Shown: piece by piece, positions 39,407 to 58,137 of the stretch
Numbering within the stretch: the stretch's first letter is position 1
How the letters are laid out: the number at the start of each line of letters is the position of its first letter
Assembly: GCF_019974155.1 (NCBI RefSeq)
Contig: NZ_AP025158.1
Coordinates: forward strand, 620,001 to 684,000
DNA: 64,000 nt
Direction: 5' to 3'
From: Thermus thermophilus
GTDB taxonomy: Bacteria; Deinococcota; Deinococci; Deinococcales; Thermaceae
The notes under the pieces: generated by a model
Told to the model about the DNA's origin: nothing
What the model saw: the letters and a program-made list of their open reading frames with translations, nothing else
Database searches by the model: none
Program-made: the position numbers and the translations under genes

Positions 39407-39793
39407 ATGAAGAAGGCCCTGGTCCTGGCCCTCCTCCTGGGCCTTTTCGCCCAGGGGCAGGCGGTTCAAGGGGAAGCCCTCTGGAAGCGCCTCTGCGCCC
39501 AGTGCCACGGGGAGAGGGCTCAGGGGGCGCGGCCTTACCCGGGCCTCGAGGCGGCGGCCCCCCTCTTTAGGACCCCTGAGGGCCGGCGCTACCTCGTCCT
39601 CGTGGTCCTTTACGGGAAGAAGGGGGAGGCGGGCCTCATGCCGGGCTTCCCCCAGCTTGGGGACGAGGAGCTCGCCGCCCTCCTGAACCACCTCATGGCC
39701 CTCCTCAAGGTGCGGGCCGAGCCCTTCCGTCCGGAGGACGTCAAAAGAGAGCGGGGCCAGAACCTGGCCCCGGACCGGATCCAAAGGCCCTAG
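39407..39793 (+). CDS. Exported c-type cytochrome (monoheme)
   Basis: 128-residue protein with signal peptide [19 protein letters not shown], then the heme-attachment motif CAQCH at about residue 30 and a Met axial-ligand candidate in [25 protein letters not shown], the standard order for class I cytochrome c. A charged tail ([12 protein letters not shown]) follows. Its redox partner is not indicated by neighbours. It meets ilvD tail-to-tail with both stops in one CTAG. It is probably leaderless. Confidence 0.9.
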
Positions 39794-41457
39794 AGGGGGT
39801 CTTCCAGCACCGCCCCCTCGTCCGCCTGGCGCACCAGGGCGGCGTAGCGGGCGAAGAGGCCGTGGGTGAAGGCGGGGGGGCGGGGCCGCCAGCGGGCCTT
39901 CCGCCTTTCCAGCTCCTCCTCGGGAAGGAGGACCTCGAGGCGGCGGCCTTCCACGTCAATCCGGATGCGGTCGCCCTCTTCCAGGAGGGCGATGGGCCCG
40001 CCCACGAAGGCCTCGGGGGCGATGTGGCCGATCATGAGGCCCCGGGTGCCTCCGGAGAAACGCCCGTCCGTGAGGAGGGCCACCTCCGGCCCCAGACCCT
40101 CCCCCACGATGGCGCTCGTCACCGAGAGCATCTCAGGCATCCCCGGCGCCCCCTTGGGGCCCACGTAGCGGATGACCACCACGTCCCCGGGCCGGATCTC
40201 CCCCTTGAGGACCTTCTCCATGGCCGCCTCCTCGGAGTCAAAGACCCGGGCCGGGCCCTCAAAGTAGGTGCGCTCCGTCCCCGCCAGCTTGAGGACGGCC
40301 CCCTTGGGGGCGAGGTTCCCTTTGAGCACCACGAGCCCCCCGTGGGGCTTGAGGGCCTTCTCCACGGGGAAGACCACCTTCTGCCCCTCCGCCTCCCGGT
40401 AGGCCCTTTCCACCTCCTCCGCCAGGGTGCGGCCCGTGAGGGTCTTCTCCTCTCCGTAAAGAAGCCCCGCCTCCAAAAGCCGCTTGAAGACGAGGGCCGT
40501 GCCCCCGGCCTCGTAGAGCTCCCAGGCGGTGTAGGTGCCCCAGGGGCGGAGGTCGGCGATCACCGGGGTCTTGCGGGAGATCTGGTCAAAGTCGTCCAGG
40601 CTGAGCTCCACCCCCGCCTCCTTGGCCAGGGCGAGGAGGTGGAGGACGGCGTTGGTGCTCCCCCCCGTGGCGGCCACGGCGGCGATGGCGTTGAGGAAGC
40701 TTTTCCGGGTGAGGAAGTCCTTGGGCTTCCAGTCCTTTTCTATGGCCCAGGCGAGGATCTTCCCCGCCTCCTTGGTGGCCCGCTCCTTCTCGGGATGGAC
40801 GGCGGGGATGGCGTTGTAGCCCAAGGGGGAGAGGCCCAAGGCCTCGAGGGCCATGGCCATGGTGTTGGCGGTGTACTGGCCGCCGCAGGCCCCGGGGCCG
40901 GGGATGGCCCGGCGCTCAATCTCCAAAAGCTCCTCCTCGGAGATCTTCCCCGCGGCCCTTTGCCCCACCGCCTCAAAGACCTCCACGATGGTGAGCTTCC
41001 GGCCCCGCCACTCCCCGGGGGCGATGGTCCCCCCGTAGAGGACCATGCCGGGGACGCCGCTACGGATCACCCCCATGGCGGTCCCCGGGATGGTCTTGTC
41101 GCAGGCGGAAAGCCCCACCATGCCGTCGTAGAGGTAGCCTTGGGCGATGAGCTCCACGCTGTCGGCGATGACCTCCCGGCTTACGAGGCTCGCCCGCATG
41201 CCCGGGGTGCCCATGCTGATCCCGTCGGAGATGGCGGGGGCCCCGAACTCAAAGGGGAAAAGCCCCGCCTCCTTGAGCCCGGCCTTGAGGTAAAGGGCCA
41301 GGCTTCGCAGGTGGAAGTTGCAGGGCATCCCGTCGGTGAAGGTGTTCACCACCCCCACGAAGGGCTTTCCGAAGTCCTCGTCCCCCACCCCCACCGCCCG
41401 GAGCATGGCGCGGGCGGGGGCCTGCTTGAGTCCCTTCTTGATCTGGTCCGACCTCAT
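39790..41457 (-). CDS. ilvD: Dihydroxy-acid dehydratase
   Basis: IlvD (555 aa) dehydrates dihydroxy-isovalerate and dihydroxy-methylvalerate in valine/isoleucine synthesis. The Fe-S ligand blocks are [19 protein letters not shown] and [22 protein letters not shown], with [16 protein letters not shown] near the C-terminus. ATG 41457 overlaps the stop of the SDR gene (ATGA) with GGAGGG upstream; an in-frame ATG at 41469 would lie inside that gene. It is the last gene of the leuCDB cluster, linking leucine and Val/Ile synthesis. Confidence 0.95.
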
Positions 41458-42188
41458 GCGTCCCTCCAAGTGGCGATCTTCCCGTGGAAGGCCCTGGCCT
41501 TGGGGAGAAGCCGCACCAGGGCCTTGGCGGCCTCCTCCGGGGTGAGGAGGAGGCCCTCCTCTTTGTAACCTCTAAACACCCGGTGAAGGACGGGAGCGGC
41601 GCTTCCCTGGGCCTCCCGGGCCTGGCGCTGCATCTCCGTCTCCACCACCCCGGGGCGGTAGACGAAGCAGGCGACCTCTGGGGCCTCGGCGGCGAGCTGC
41701 CGGGCCAGGTGCTCCTCCGCCGCCTTGGCCACGGCGTAGGCCCCGATGCCCGGCAGGTTGCTCTCCGCCGCCCCCGAGCCCAGGTACACGGCGAGGCCCT
41801 CCCCTTTGCGCCTGAGGACGGGGTAGGCGAAGCGGGCGAGCTGGTAGCCGGCGAGGAGGTTGGCCTCGAGGACCTCCAGGAAGAGTTCCTCCGCGAGCTC
41901 AAAGAGGAGGGGCCCCGGGTGGAGGACCCCGGCGTTGTGGATGTAGCCCGCGAAGTTTCCCAAGGCCTCGGCCCTTTCCACCAGGGCCTGGGCCACCTCC
42001 GCCTTCCCCGCGCTTCCCGCCACGTGGGCCACCTTGGCCCCCAGGGCCTGGACCTCCTCGGCCACGGCCCTTAAGGGGGCCTCCTTGCGGGCGTTTAACA
42101 CTAGGTCAAAGCCCGCCTTGGCGAGCTCCAGGGCGAGGGCCTTCCCGATGCCCCGGCTCGCCCCGGTGAGGATCAGGGTCTTTCTCAT
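41454..42188 (-). CDS. Short-chain dehydrogenase/reductase
   Basis: 244-residue classical SDR. Cofactor motif [10 protein letters not shown] (TGxxxGxG), NAGV, the catalytic Ser in LGSGAAESN and YAVAK (YxxxK) are all intact; the residue after the second strand is Arg in NARKE, favouring NADP. The substrate is unknown. It is coupled by four-bp overlaps to the Uma2 gene upstream and ilvD downstream, so it is carried in the leucine operon although no branched-chain step obviously needs it. Confidence 0.9.
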
Positions 42189-42718
42189 AGAAGCTCCTCC
42201 GCGGGGACCTCCACGCCCCCGAAGGCAAGCCTGGCCCCGGGGCCCAGGGCCTCCACCTCCCGGTAGCCCCCGCCTTCCGGCTTCCGGTGGACGAGGACCC
42301 GCTTCCCCTCCAGGTCCACCACCCAGACCTCGGGCACCCCGGCTTGGGCGTAGAGGGGGAGCTTCACCTGGAGGTCGTAGCGGAGGGAGGTTTCCGCCAC
42401 CTCCACCACGAGGAGGGCGTCCCGTCCCTGGGGCAGACCCTCCTCGTAAAAGTCGGGCCGGGGCTTAAGGAGGGCGAGGTCGGGGTAAAGCTCCGACTCC
42501 CCCACCACCAGGGGGCTTTGCACGAAGAGGATGGCCTTTTGGGGCACAAGGGGGCCGAAGAGGGCGGTGAGCTTGGCCACCTTGGCGGCGTGGCGCTTCC
42601 CCATGGGGCTCATCTCCACCAGGTCTCCTTCCACGAGCTCCAGCCTCAGGTCCTCCGGGAAGACGCCGGCCTCCACCATGCGGTGGAACTCCTCCAGGGA
42701 GATCTTGTGGCGGGTCAC
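42185..42718 (-). CDS. Uma2-family (PD-(D/E)XK nuclease-like) protein, copy 1
   Basis: 177-residue Uma2/DUF820 protein, a restriction-endonuclease-like fold. The N-terminal part resembles FHRMVEAGVFPEDLRLELVEGDLVEMSP; the catalytic-like residues are Asp in LYPDLALL, Glu in LVVEVAETS, and the Lys region VKLPLYAQAGVPEVWVVDL. Starts at GTG, overlapping the previous Uma2 gene by four bp. It is about half identical to its neighbour by eye, so the pair is a tandem duplication inside the leuB-ilvD operon. Biochemical function of the family is not established. Confidence 0.87.
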   Translation of the reverse strand: MTRHKISLEEFHRMVEAGVFPEDLRLELVEGDLVEMSPMGKRHAAKVAKLTALFGPLVPQKAILFVQSPLVVGESELYPDLALLKPRPDFYEEGLPQGRDALLVVEVAETSLRYDLQVKLPLYAQAGVPEVWVVDLEGKRVLVHRKPEGGGYREVEALGPGARLAFGGVEVPAEELL

Positions 42719-43254
42719 GGCAGGACCTCCTTGACCGGCACCTTAAGGCCCAGGACCGAAAGCTCCCCGTCCTCGAGGGCCTCCCTCTCCCCGTAGCCCT
42801 CCCCTTGGGGCTTGCGGAAGACGTGCACCCTCTCCCGCACCAGGTCCACCACCCAGACCTCGGGGATCCCGGCTTTGGCGTAGAGGGGGAGCTTCACCTT
42901 GAGGTCCTGGTCCAGGCTGGTCTCGGCCACCTCCACCACCAGAAGGGCGTCCCTGGCCTCGGGCACCCTTTCCCGGTAAAAGTCGTCCCGGTAGGCGAGG
43001 AGGGCCAGATCCGGTTGGGGTTCGGTGTCGGGAAAAAGGCGCAAGGGGTCCTGGACTTGAAGGAGGGCCTTCTTCGCCTGTTGTAGAGGAAAAAGCGCGT
43101 TCATAAGCCGCTTTAAAGCGGCCATGTGCCGCTTGCCCACGGGGCTCAACTCCACCACCTCCCCCTGGAGGAGCTCCACCCGGTCGTCCTCCCCCAGGAT
43201 CCCCGCCTCGGCCATGCGGTGGAAGTCCTCGGCGCTGAAGCGGTGCCGGATCAT
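42715..43254 (-). CDS. Uma2-family (PD-(D/E)XK nuclease-like) protein, copy 2
   Basis: 179-residue paralogue of the next gene: FHRMAEAGILGEDDRVELLQGEVVELSPVGKRH start, then PQPDLALLAYRDDF, LLVVEVAETSLDQDLKVKLPLYAKAGIPEVWVVDL, and a C-terminal RVHVFRKPQGEGY. ATG 43254 has GGGGGT upstream and lies nine nt after the leuB stop. The two Uma2 genes are transcribed with leucine genes, but the sequence gives no sign that they act in the pathway. Confidence 0.87.
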   Translation of the reverse strand: MIRHRFSAEDFHRMAEAGILGEDDRVELLQGEVVELSPVGKRHMAALKRLMNALFPLQQAKKALLQVQDPLRLFPDTEPQPDLALLAYRDDFYRERVPEARDALLVVEVAETSLDQDLKVKLPLYAKAGIPEVWVVDLVRERVHVFRKPQGEGYGEREALEDGELSVLGLKVPVKEVLP

Positions 43255-44914: not shown

Positions 44915-46330
44915 TTAACGGGCGCCGACGCCAAAGACCTCCCGGGCGTCGGCGATCTCCCCGGCCACGGCCGCCGCCGCCACCATGAGGGGGCTCATGA
45001 GGACGGTGCGGCCCCTGGGGCTTCCCATGCGTCCCTTGTAGTTGCGGTTGGAGCTGCTGGCGCAAAGCTCGTCCCCTTCCAGCCGGTCCGGGTTCATGGC
45101 GAGGCACATGGAGCAGCCGGGCATCCGCCACTCAAACCCCGCCTCGCGGAAGACCTCGGCGATCCCCTCTTCCTCGGCCTTCCTCGCCACCCACTCCGAG
45201 CCCGGCACCACCAGGGCCCGCACCCCCTTCTTCACCTTATGCCCCTTGAGGTAGCGGGCGACCTCCCGGAGGTCGGAAAGCCTCGCGTTGGTGCAGCTTC
45301 CGATGAAGGCCACCTGGATGGGCACCCCCTTGATGGGCTGGCCCGGCTTGAAGCCCATGTAGGCCAACGCCTCCTCTGCCACGGGGCGCTCCTCCTCCGG
45401 CAACTCCTCCAGGAGGGGGATCCTGCCGTCAATGGGGATGGCCTGGCCCGGGGTGATGCCCCAGGTGACGGTGGGGGGGATCTCCTCGGCGCGGAAGGTG
45501 ACCACGTCGTCGTAGGAGGCGTCGGGGTCGGAGCGCCAAGCGAGCCACCTCCTCTTGGCCTCCTCCCACTCGGACCCCTTGGGGACGTAGGGGCGGCCCT
45601 CCAGGTACCGGAAGGTGGTCTCGTCGGGGTTCACGTAGCCGATGCGGGCTCCCCCCTCAATGGACATGTTGCAGAGGGTCATGCGGCTTTCCATGTCCAT
45701 GGCCTCCACGGTGCTTCCCCCGTATTCATAGGCGTAGCCCAGGCCCCCCTTCACCCCCAGGTGGCGGATGATGTGGAGGATCACGTCCTTGGCGTAGACC
45801 CCGGGGGCGAGCCTCCCCTCCACGTTGATCCGCCGCACCTTGAGCTTCTGGGCGGCGAGGGTCTGGGTGGCGAGGACGTCCCGGACCTGGCTCGTGCCGA
45901 TGCCGAAGGCCACGGCCCCGAAGGCCCCGTGGGTGGAGGTGTGGGAGTCCCCGCAGGCGATGGTCATCCCGGGCTGGGTGAGGCCGAGCTGGGGCCCGAT
46001 GACGTGGACGATGCCTTGGTTCCCGCTTCCCAGGTCAAAGAAGGTGATGCCGTGCTCCCTGGTGTTCGCCCTCAGGGCCTCCAGCATGCTCTGGGCCAGG
46101 GGGTCCTGGAAGGGCTCGGTGCGGTCGTGGGTGGGGACGATGTGGTCCACGGTGGCGAAGGTGCGGTGGGGGTAGCGTACCCGAAGGCCCAGGTCCTTGA
46201 GCATGCCGAAGGCCTGGGGGCTCGTGACCTCGTGGAGGAGGTGGAGGTCTATGAAGAGCTGGCTCTGGCCGTTTCGGAGCTTCCTCACCTCGTGGGCTTC
46301 CCAAACCTTGTCGTAGAGCGTCTTTCCCAT
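44915..46330 (-). CDS. leuC: 3-isopropylmalate dehydratase large subunit
   Basis: LeuC (471 aa), the [4Fe-4S] aconitase-family subunit. Cluster ligands lie in [13 protein letters not shown] and [35 protein letters not shown] and [11 protein letters not shown] are also conserved. I start at ATG 46330 ([15 protein letters not shown]), with AAGGGGGG upstream; an in-frame ATG 18 nt earlier would extend into the terminator hairpin. The gene is preceded by a leader peptide and attenuator (46347-46441), so its expression should respond to charging of leucine or valine tRNA. Confidence 0.96.
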
Positions 46331-46346
46331 GAAACCCCCCTTACGC

Positions 46347-46376
46347 AAAACCCCCGGGTCCTTTGGGGCCCGGGGG
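46347..46376 (-). terminator. Attenuator terminator upstream of leuC
   Basis: On the minus strand CCCCCGGG (46376-46369) pairs with CCCGGGGG (46358-46351), with two more inner pairs, followed by TTTT (46350-46347). It lies between the leader peptide and leuC, 17 nt before the leuC ATG. The 5' arm CCGGGCCC (46373-46366) can instead pair with GGGCCCGG of the leader (46406-46399), giving an 8-bp antiterminator. Confidence 0.8.
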
Positions 46377-46393
46377 ATACGCGACGGTCATCC

Positions 46394-46441
46394 CTAGACC
46401 GGGCCCGCCCGGTCTAGGACTAGAGTCACCGCCCGCCGCAT
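46394..46441 (-). CDS. leuL: leu operon leader peptide
   Basis: 15-codon open frame from ATG 46441 (AGGGGC upstream) to TAG 46394: MRRAVTLVLDRAGPV. The middle reads ACT-CTA-GTC-CTA, with two rare CTA leucine codons and valine, followed by a self-complementary stretch CTAGACCGGGC/GCCCGGTCTAG that includes the stop. Position (between promoter and terminator) and composition fit a classic attenuation leader. TACCCT (46455-46450) lies eight nt before the ATG, so the leader peptide itself is nearly leaderless. No experimental support can be claimed from sequence alone. Confidence 0.78.
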   Translation of the reverse strand: MRRAVTLVLDRAGPV

Positions 46442-46449
46442 TGCCCCTA

Positions 46450-46479
46450 AGGGTAAGCCCTCGAGGCCTATGGGGTCAA
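46450..46479 (-). promoter_or_regulatory. leu operon promoter
   Basis: Minus strand TTGACC (46479-46474), 18-bp spacer, TACCCT (46455-46450). Its -35 lies in the 12-bp palindrome GTCAAGCTTGAC (46475-46486), whose other half starts the -35 of the divergent tRNA-Leu promoter. Confidence 0.7.
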
Positions 46480-46481
46480 GC

Positions 46482-46510
46482 TTGACGAGCGAAGCCGCCT
46501 CCCCTACAAT
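46482..46510 (+). promoter_or_regulatory. tRNA-Leu(CAG) promoter
   Basis: TTGACG (46482-46487), exactly 17 bp, then TACAAT (46505-46510). The mature tRNA begins 13 nt after the -10, leaving a short 5' leader. The -35 hexamers of this promoter and of the divergent leu promoter are separated by only two bases. Confidence 0.85.
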
Positions 46511-57012: not shown

Positions 57013-57993
57013 ATGGTGGACGTCCTCGTGGTGGGCGCGGGCCCCGTGGGGCTTTGCGCCGCCCTTTGGGCCAAGCGCCTCGGCCTTTCCCACCTGGTGC
57101 TGGAGCGGGGCACGGTGGCGGAGACCCTTTACCGCTTTCCCCGGGACATGGTCTTCTTCTCCGAGGCCAAGAACATTGAGATCGGGGGCCATCCCCTGGT
57201 CGCCCAAGGCCCCAAGCCCACCCGGAAGGAGGCCCTCCTCTACTACCAGCGGGTGGCGGAGCGGGAGGGGCTAAGCGTCCTCACCTACACCGAGGCCCTG
57301 GCCATCCGGGGCCGGGAGGGGGGCTTTCAGGTCCTGGCCAAAGACCGCAAGGGGGAGCGGACCTTCTCGGCCCGGTACGTGGTGGTGGCCACGGGCTACT
57401 TCGGAAACCCGAACCGCTTGGGCGTCCCTGGGGAGGACCTCCCCCACGTCCTCCACCGCTACGAGGAGGCCGCCCCCTTCTTCGGGCGGGAGGTGGCGGT
57501 GGTGGGGGGGTCCAACTCCGCGGTGGAGGCCGCCTTGGACCTCTACCGCGGCGGGGCGAGGGTCACCCTCGTCCACCGGGGGAAGTGGGTCCGTCCCAGC
57601 GTGAAGTACTGGCTCCTCCCCGACCTGGAAAACCGGGTCAAGGAGGGGAGCATCCGGGCGGTGATGGAGGCCCGGGTGGAGGCCATCACCCCGGAGGGGC
57701 TTTGGCTTTCCCGCCCAGAAGGGCGGGAGTTCCTGCCCGCCGACTTCGTGCTGGTGCTCATCGGCTACCGGGCGGAAGACCGCCTCCTCAGGGAGGCGGG
57801 GGTGGCCTACGAGGGGGAGAGGCCCTGGCTTTCCCCAGAGGGGGAGACCTCCATCCCCGGCCTCTTCGCCGTGGGCTCCTGCGCCTACGGGCCCGACACC
57901 CGCTCCGTCTTCATAGAGAACGGCCGGGAGCAGGCCCGAATCGCCCTCACCGCCATCGCCGCCCGGGTGCGGGGCTTGACACCAAGGCCTTAG
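57013..57993 (+). CDS. ypdA: YpdA/Bdr-like FAD-dependent (bacillithiol disulfide) reductase
   Basis: 326-residue flavoprotein of the thioredoxin-reductase-like class without a CxxC redox pair. FAD motif VVGAGPVGLCAALWAK at the start, the YpdA-type segment FPRDMVFFSEAKNIEIGG, NADPH motif VVGGSNSAVEAALDLYRGG, and the C-terminal FAD contact GLFAVGSCAYGPDTRSVFIENGREQ. YpdA reduces bacillithiol disulfide, and Deinococcus-Thermus bacteria use bacillithiol, so the role is likely but inferred. TAAACT (57000-57005) lies seven nt before the ATG, a leaderless start. The -35 of the ilv promoter is inside its last codons. Confidence 0.85.
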   Translation: MVDVLVVGAGPVGLCAALWAKRLGLSHLVLERGTVAETLYRFPRDMVFFSEAKNIEIGGHPLVAQGPKPTRKEALLYYQRVAEREGLSVLTYTEALAIRGREGGFQVLAKDRKGERTFSARYVVVATGYFGNPNRLGVPGEDLPHVLHRYEEAAPFFGREVAVVGGSNSAVEAALDLYRGGARVTLVHRGKWVRPSVKYWLLPDLENRVKEGSIRAVMEARVEAITPEGLWLSRPEGREFLPADFVLVLIGYRAEDRLLREAGVAYEGERPWLSPEGETSIPGLFAVGSCAYGPDTRSVFIENGREQARIALTAIAARVRGLTPRP

Positions 57994-58004
57994 GGGGCTA
58001 TCCT
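57976..58004 (+). promoter_or_regulatory. ilvBNC operon promoter
   Basis: Consensus TTGACA (57976-57981), 17-bp spacer, TATCCT (57999-58004). The leader-peptide ATG is at 58015, about ten nt after the -10. The -35 lies within the 3' end of the reductase coding sequence. Confidence 0.85.
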
Positions 58005-58014
58005 TAGCCCCAAG

Positions 58015-58083
58015 ATGCGCGCCGGACTCGTCCTATCCCTAGCCCTGGTCCTAATCGTAGGGCCAGCGGGGGGTAGGGCGTAG
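58015..58083 (+). CDS. ilvL: ilv operon leader peptide
   Basis: 22-codon frame from ATG 58015 to TAG 58081-58083. Codons 5-15 encode LVLSLALVLIV (CTC GTC CTA TCC CTA GCC CTG GTC CTA ATC GTA), ten of eleven hydrophobic and nine of them Leu, Val or Ile, three using the rare CTA. It lies between a consensus promoter and a terminator hairpin, exactly as in attenuation leaders of enteric ilv operons. The codons after the control run (GCG GGG GGT) contain the segment able to form an antiterminator. A signal-peptide-like function is a weaker alternative, given its length. Confidence 0.82.
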   Translation: MRAGLVLSLALVLIVGPAGGRA

Positions 58084-58103
58084 CGTTTTAGGGCGCATCC
58101 CAT

Positions 58104-58137
58104 AACCCCCCGGGCCAACCGGGGGGTTCAAGTTTAA
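58104..58137 (+). terminator. Attenuator terminator upstream of ilvB
   Basis: AACCCCCCGG (58104-58113) and CCGGGGGGTT (58119-58128) form a perfect 10-bp stem with a 5-nt loop, followed by CAAGTTTAA. It ends about ten nt before the ilvB ATG. The 5' arm ACCCCCCG (58105-58112) can alternatively pair with CGGGGGGT (58067-58074) of the leader. Confidence 0.82.

Follow-up and report, generated by a model that had tools for sequence, protein, structure and literature searches.

Ribosome-mediated transcription attenuation is a textbook mechanism that is best known from enteric bacteria. For instance, the leu attenuator of Salmonella and Escherichia coli (leuL; RF00512) relies on a leader peptide with rare CUA leucine control codons and on alternative antiterminator and terminator structures ahead of the leu genes. 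In Thermus thermophilus, Croft et al. (1987) and Tamakoshi et al. (1998) reportedly described a promoter upstream of leuC together with an attenuator-like leader; their leu leader belongs to the same operon as the one analyzed here, and the T. thermophilus leu attenuator may already have been published. Our literature search, which had the older key papers outside its reach, found no publication describing a leu attenuator in Thermus. For E. coli, theory singles out CUA as the control codon best suited to leu, and the Salmonella leu attenuator is described as less sensitive after a change from CUA to CUG (Carter et al., 1986), both according to PMC1183508. A further relative in design is the ilvBNC attenuator of Corynebacterium glutamicum, which also precedes a branched-chain amino acid operon and whose leader peptide reportedly needs no ribosome binding site to be formed (Morbach et al., 2000, cited in PMC10272879), but which differs from the Thermus leu element in phylum, gene and leader sequence.

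We analyzed a stretch of 64,000 nucleotides of T. thermophilus DNA (NZ_AP025158.1, positions 620,001 to 684,000), referred to as the window in the following, in which the element before leuC is very probably a ribosome-mediated transcription attenuator for leucine. While it shares the enteric principle, its 15-residue leader contains two CTA codons set apart instead of in a run, its start is predicted to be leaderless, and the leader lacks any Rfam match. The gene string that it precedes, leuCDB...ilvD, differs from the enteric leu operon in lacking leuA:

44915..46330, minus strand: leuC, first gene of the putatively controlled operon (Pfam Aconitase, 1.3e-166)
44903-44298, minus strand: leuD (Pfam Aconitase_C)
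44301-43264, minus strand: leuB (Pfam Iso_dh)
41454..43254, minus strand: two Uma2-family genes and a short-chain dehydrogenase gene, between leuB and ilvD (open reading frames and Pfam)
39790..41469, minus strand: ilvD, final gene of the string (Pfam ILVD_EDD_N, 3.2e-117)

These genes follow each other in the order leuC, leuD, leuB, two Uma2-family genes, short-chain dehydrogenase and ilvD almost without gaps, some of them touching or overlapping. The Uma2-family pair, putative nucleases, occupies 42185-43254 (minus strand) within the leucine gene string; further open reading frames near 48-50 kb resemble Uma2-family genes by eye.

Upstream of leuC, which starts with the ATG at 46330 and is preceded by the Shine-Dalgarno-like sequence TAAGGGGGG, we find the following elements:

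46474..46479, minus strand: -35 box TTGACC of the leu promoter (sequence)
46450..46455, minus strand: -10 box TACCCT of the leu promoter, 18-bp spacer to the -35 box (sequence)
46394..46441, minus strand: leader peptide open reading frame MRRAVTLVLDRAGPV, 15 codons, ATG at 46441, TAG stop at 46396-46394
46418-46408 with 46403-46393, minus strand: hairpin 1:2, 11 bp, -22.7 kcal/mol at 37 °C
46433-46428 with 46388-46383, minus strand: outer stem extending hairpin 1:2 (minimum free energy folds of 26 sequences)
46406-46399 (GGGCCCGG) with 46373-46366 (CCGGGCCC), minus strand: antiterminator 2:3, 8 bp (sequence and folding)
46376-46366 with 46361-46351, followed by TTTT at 46350-46347, minus strand: terminator 3:4 (sequence and folding)
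46482-46487, plus strand: -35 box TTGACG of the divergent tRNA-Leu(CAG) promoter (sigma-70 scan)

A first-pass annotation of this DNA had proposed a leader-peptide attenuator from a 15-residue minus-strand frame with the codons CTA-GTC-CTA, a hairpin at its stop, a terminator with four T shortly before leuC and an 8-bp antiterminator. The frame proved correct to the base, with CTA as codons 7 (46423-46421) and 9 (46417-46415) and GTC between them. The hairpin overlaps the leader stop as described: its 11 bp (46418-46393) span codon 9 and the stop, and within it the CTA of codon 9 pairs with the UAG. Likewise, the TTTT ends 16 nt ahead of the leuC ATG, and the antiterminator is present at the bases named and forms an alternative to the terminator in modelled nascent RNA. 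As a whole, the attenuator reading gains support from the sequence comparisons and folding models below, in which all elements are present, conserved in every Thermus genome examined and recurring across the order. Three features described below go beyond that annotation: the predicted near-absence of a 5' untranslated region, the promoter arrangement with tRNA-Leu and a second putative attenuator before ilvB. The elements escape standard searches: a standard sigma-70 and terminator scan with strict rules missed both the leu promoter, with its TACCCT -10 box, and the terminator before leuC, for which it requires five T where the run comprises only four, and an Rfam scan of the whole window matched tRNA alone, the leader corresponding to no family, including the RF00512 Leu leader. 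A second small open reading frame, which overlaps the terminator (46391-46341), is shared by the window and its two closest relatives alone and was dismissed as a chance occurrence.

The leader ATG lies 8 nt past the end of the leu -10 box, a layout repeated in the Thermus regions, and the transcript is therefore expected to start at the ATG or within about 3 nt of it. We accordingly predict a leaderless or almost leaderless mRNA, in a phylum that is rich in leaderless genes (PMC3160421). The -35 boxes of the leu and tRNA-Leu(CAG) promoters stand back-to-back with a gap of 2 bp (GTCAAGCTTGAC, 46474-46510), so that polymerase can hardly occupy both simultaneously; of the 27 Thermus regions listed, 12 contain the GTCAAGCTTGAC palindrome, which is absent from the other regions. 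A different palindrome, TTTGGTATACCAAA, lies between the -35 and -10 boxes of the leuC promoter in 21 regions of Meiothermus, Calidithermus and their kin (L041-L044, L046, L047, L049, L050, L052-L056 and L061-L068, of the same family), is absent in Thermus and is possibly a repressor operator.

For the start site, the stalling, the termination and the response to leucine, we infer the following course. RNA polymerase would start at the leader ATG or within about 3 nt of it, and a ribosome would load directly onto the 5' end. With ample charged tRNA-Leu, the ribosome would reach the stop codon and either cover GGGCCCGG or be released, upon which hairpin 1:2 would re-form; with GGGCCCGG covered or paired again in 1:2, the 3:4 hairpin and the TTTT would end transcription ahead of leuC. 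When leucine is scarce, the ribosome would stall at the CTA of codon 7 or 9 and mask the 5' arm of 1:2, and the freed GGGCCCGG could then capture the emerging 5' arm of the terminator and permit read-through into leuCDB and probably ilvD. Termination would likewise be favoured by hairpin 1:2 and its outer stem if no ribosome translated the leader.

Folding of the leader is consistent with this course, which follows the classical logic of attenuation. The 101-nt leader folds with z = -3.0 relative to dinucleotide shuffles. Among shuffled spacers, 299 of 5000 (6%) can form an 8-bp Watson-Crick helix with the terminator arm, and 5 of 1000 (0.5%) pair with it as completely as the window does. To model the switch, we folded the nascent RNA up to the 3' arm of the terminator, with the bases covered by the ribosome masked. 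In the 26 Thermus sequences, the antiterminator forms a mean of 7.7 pairs when the first CTA occupies the A site and 6.0 when the second does, as opposed to 0 when the stop codon is there and about 1 when no ribosome is present (values at 37 °C; similar at 70 °C), the lower pairing at the stop being partly trivial because more RNA is masked there. Of 40 regions from outside Thermus, 36 have more than half of the terminator arm captured when the ribosome is placed at the first CTA, whereas placing it at the stop leaves 5 such regions at 37 °C and 1 at 65 °C; the predicted contrast between CTA and stop is absent in L072, L076 and L078. Some of these relatives also form the antiterminator without a ribosome, which leaves the ribosome-free state ambiguous outside Thermus. 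Since much pairing of the arm is expected in GC-rich sequence anyway, we compared arm capture with that of shuffled spacers and obtained 0.93 against a mean of 0.68 in Thermus and 0.77 against 0.58 outside it, a moderate excess in these models. At equilibrium, almost all full-length folds favour the terminator over the antiterminator, and the switch must therefore be kinetic, set by the order of synthesis.

Within Thermus, leuC and the leader element were found in 27 of 27 genomes, and the leader start, a length of 14-15 residues, both CTA codons and the TAG stop are conserved in all of them, the commonest forms being MRRGILLDLGRAGPV and MRRGFLLDLGRAGPA. In the numbering of the 15-residue form, codons 7 and 9 are CTA throughout, while codons 4, 5, 6 and 8 vary. 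The valine codons of the window leader are replaced by isoleucine, phenylalanine or aspartate codons in Thermus relatives, and the conserved signal is therefore leucine. Across 25 distinct Thermus sequences, 99.6% of cells in helix 1:2 are paired, and at one pair, 7 sequences show both partners exchanged between G-C and A-U. The covariation score of this helix was equalled by 1 of 500 shuffles and drops when the arms are slid; because only two of the eleven pairs vary, it lends the helix modest support at the sequence level. The arms of antiterminator 2:3 are nearly invariant across Thermus, which makes covariation uninformative for this helix. The outer stem joins leader codons 3-5 to sequence past the stop and recurs, with altered sequence, in many Thermus folds; given the uncertain alignment in that part, it is described without a pair-by-pair count. 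One genome carries a second copy of leuC that is broken by stop codons (L032; G019:C4, about 1354-2758), and the leader before it is identical to that of the working leuC in the same genome.

The element recurs throughout the order. We compiled 66 non-redundant leuC upstream regions, 26 from Thermus and 40 from other genera; a class-level search covers the same 111 genomes as the order-level one. A promoter followed by an ATG 5-11 nt past the -10 box and an open reading frame 8-45 codons long that includes one or more CTA was found in 65 of the 66 regions, compared with none of 3300 dinucleotide shuffles of them. Given the relatedness of the genomes, these 65 are not independent events, though the leader sequences differ strongly between genera. 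The exception, L039, has an open reading frame with two CTA codons (MRRSAALLLSSERPG) but no promoter by the rule used. In 46 of the 65 leaders, the last CTA stands exactly 7 codons ahead of the stop, which is TAG in 57, and nine leaders have a single leucine codon, which is CTA. A hairpin with a U-containing tract precedes leuC in the relatives as well, the hairpin sequence varying from genus to genus and the U tract being variable. The earlier argument that CTA is rare in this GC-rich genome also holds: with twelve window genes and Thermus leuC as reference, CTA accounts for 12 of 553 leucine codons in the former (about 2%) and 5 of 917 in the latter, compared with 116 of 168 in the leaders (69%), an enrichment of about 30-fold over the window genes.

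Other readings of these features have to be weighed. The hairpins might constitute a leucine-binding riboswitch or a protein-binding leader, next to which the small open reading frame would be incidental. Strong and conserved hairpins would suit such an element, and the promoter palindrome in relatives outside Thermus makes control by a protein possible elsewhere; yet the leader matches no Rfam family, the hairpin sequence is not shared between genera, and the open reading frame is retained in every genome despite the changing RNA sequence, with its start at a near-fixed distance from the promoter and with its marked CTA bias over the window genes. We thus consider this reading very improbable. 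As the CTA of codon 9 pairs exactly with the UAG and most leaders end in TAG, CTA could alternatively have been retained for pairing with the stop in hairpin 1:2 and not as a control codon. The CTA of codon 7, however, lies outside this hairpin and is equally invariant in all Thermus, which points to a rare codon used for control, in agreement with the enteric theory and experiment cited above, and the leaders before ilvB, described below, contain more CTA codons still; pairing is therefore highly unlikely to be the sole reason, although for codon 9 the two roles can be compatible.

Lastly, the terminator is strong and wins over the antiterminator at equilibrium, as would befit an ordinary constitutive terminator upstream of leuC, to which translation of the leader is irrelevant. 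But the promoter lies upstream of it, so that constitutive termination would shut off the very operon it precedes, and both the CTA bias and the conservation of the open reading frame would be left unexplained; we find this scarcely credible.

More tentatively, and with somewhat less than even confidence, we propose that the leaders form a family of leaderless attenuators that spans the order and senses how far the minor tRNA-Leu isoacceptor for CTA is charged, with a single CTA being enough in some species (for example MSQAIRPHRLAPR in a Meiothermus relative), and that it is coupled to tRNA-Leu synthesis via the back-to-back promoters in some Thermus. In the literature searched, we found no description of the order-wide conservation, the CTA rule or the fixed geometry. 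The data suggest that leucine synthesis in this lineage of extreme thermophiles, whose RNA hairpins must switch at 65-70 °C, is probably controlled by coupled transcription-translation attenuation that has long been conserved. If the leaderless start is true, initiation at the RNA 5' end would be the first step of the sensor. Furthermore, the near-exclusive use of CTA provides a natural test of the theory of rare-codon sensitivity, and as Thermus is genetically tractable and its ribosome a standard structural model, the stalled state is open to direct study.

The same genome holds further leaders of this kind. A second putative attenuator of the same design lies before ilvB, 11.8 kb away in the window:

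57976-58127, plus strand: ilvB leader region, with TTGACA (57976), TATCCT and an ATG at 58015, 10 nt after the -10 box; leader peptide MRAGLVLSLALVLIVGPAGGRA with three CTA codons

Its open reading frame is followed by a GC-rich, terminator-like hairpin (CCCCCCGGGCCAACCGGGGGG), and the leader is conserved in 25 of the 25 Thermus regions read, with three or four CTA codons. Likewise, a leader open reading frame encoding MALPSALWWPG (L164, about 2045-1970, minus strand) starts directly past a TATCCT box, with a hairpin and a T run before trpE. The content of each leader matches its own pathway, that of ilvB being rich in branched-chain amino acids and that of trpE containing two adjacent tryptophans. 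Judging from the leu, ilvB and trpE leaders, leaderless attenuators seem to be a general habit of this genome.
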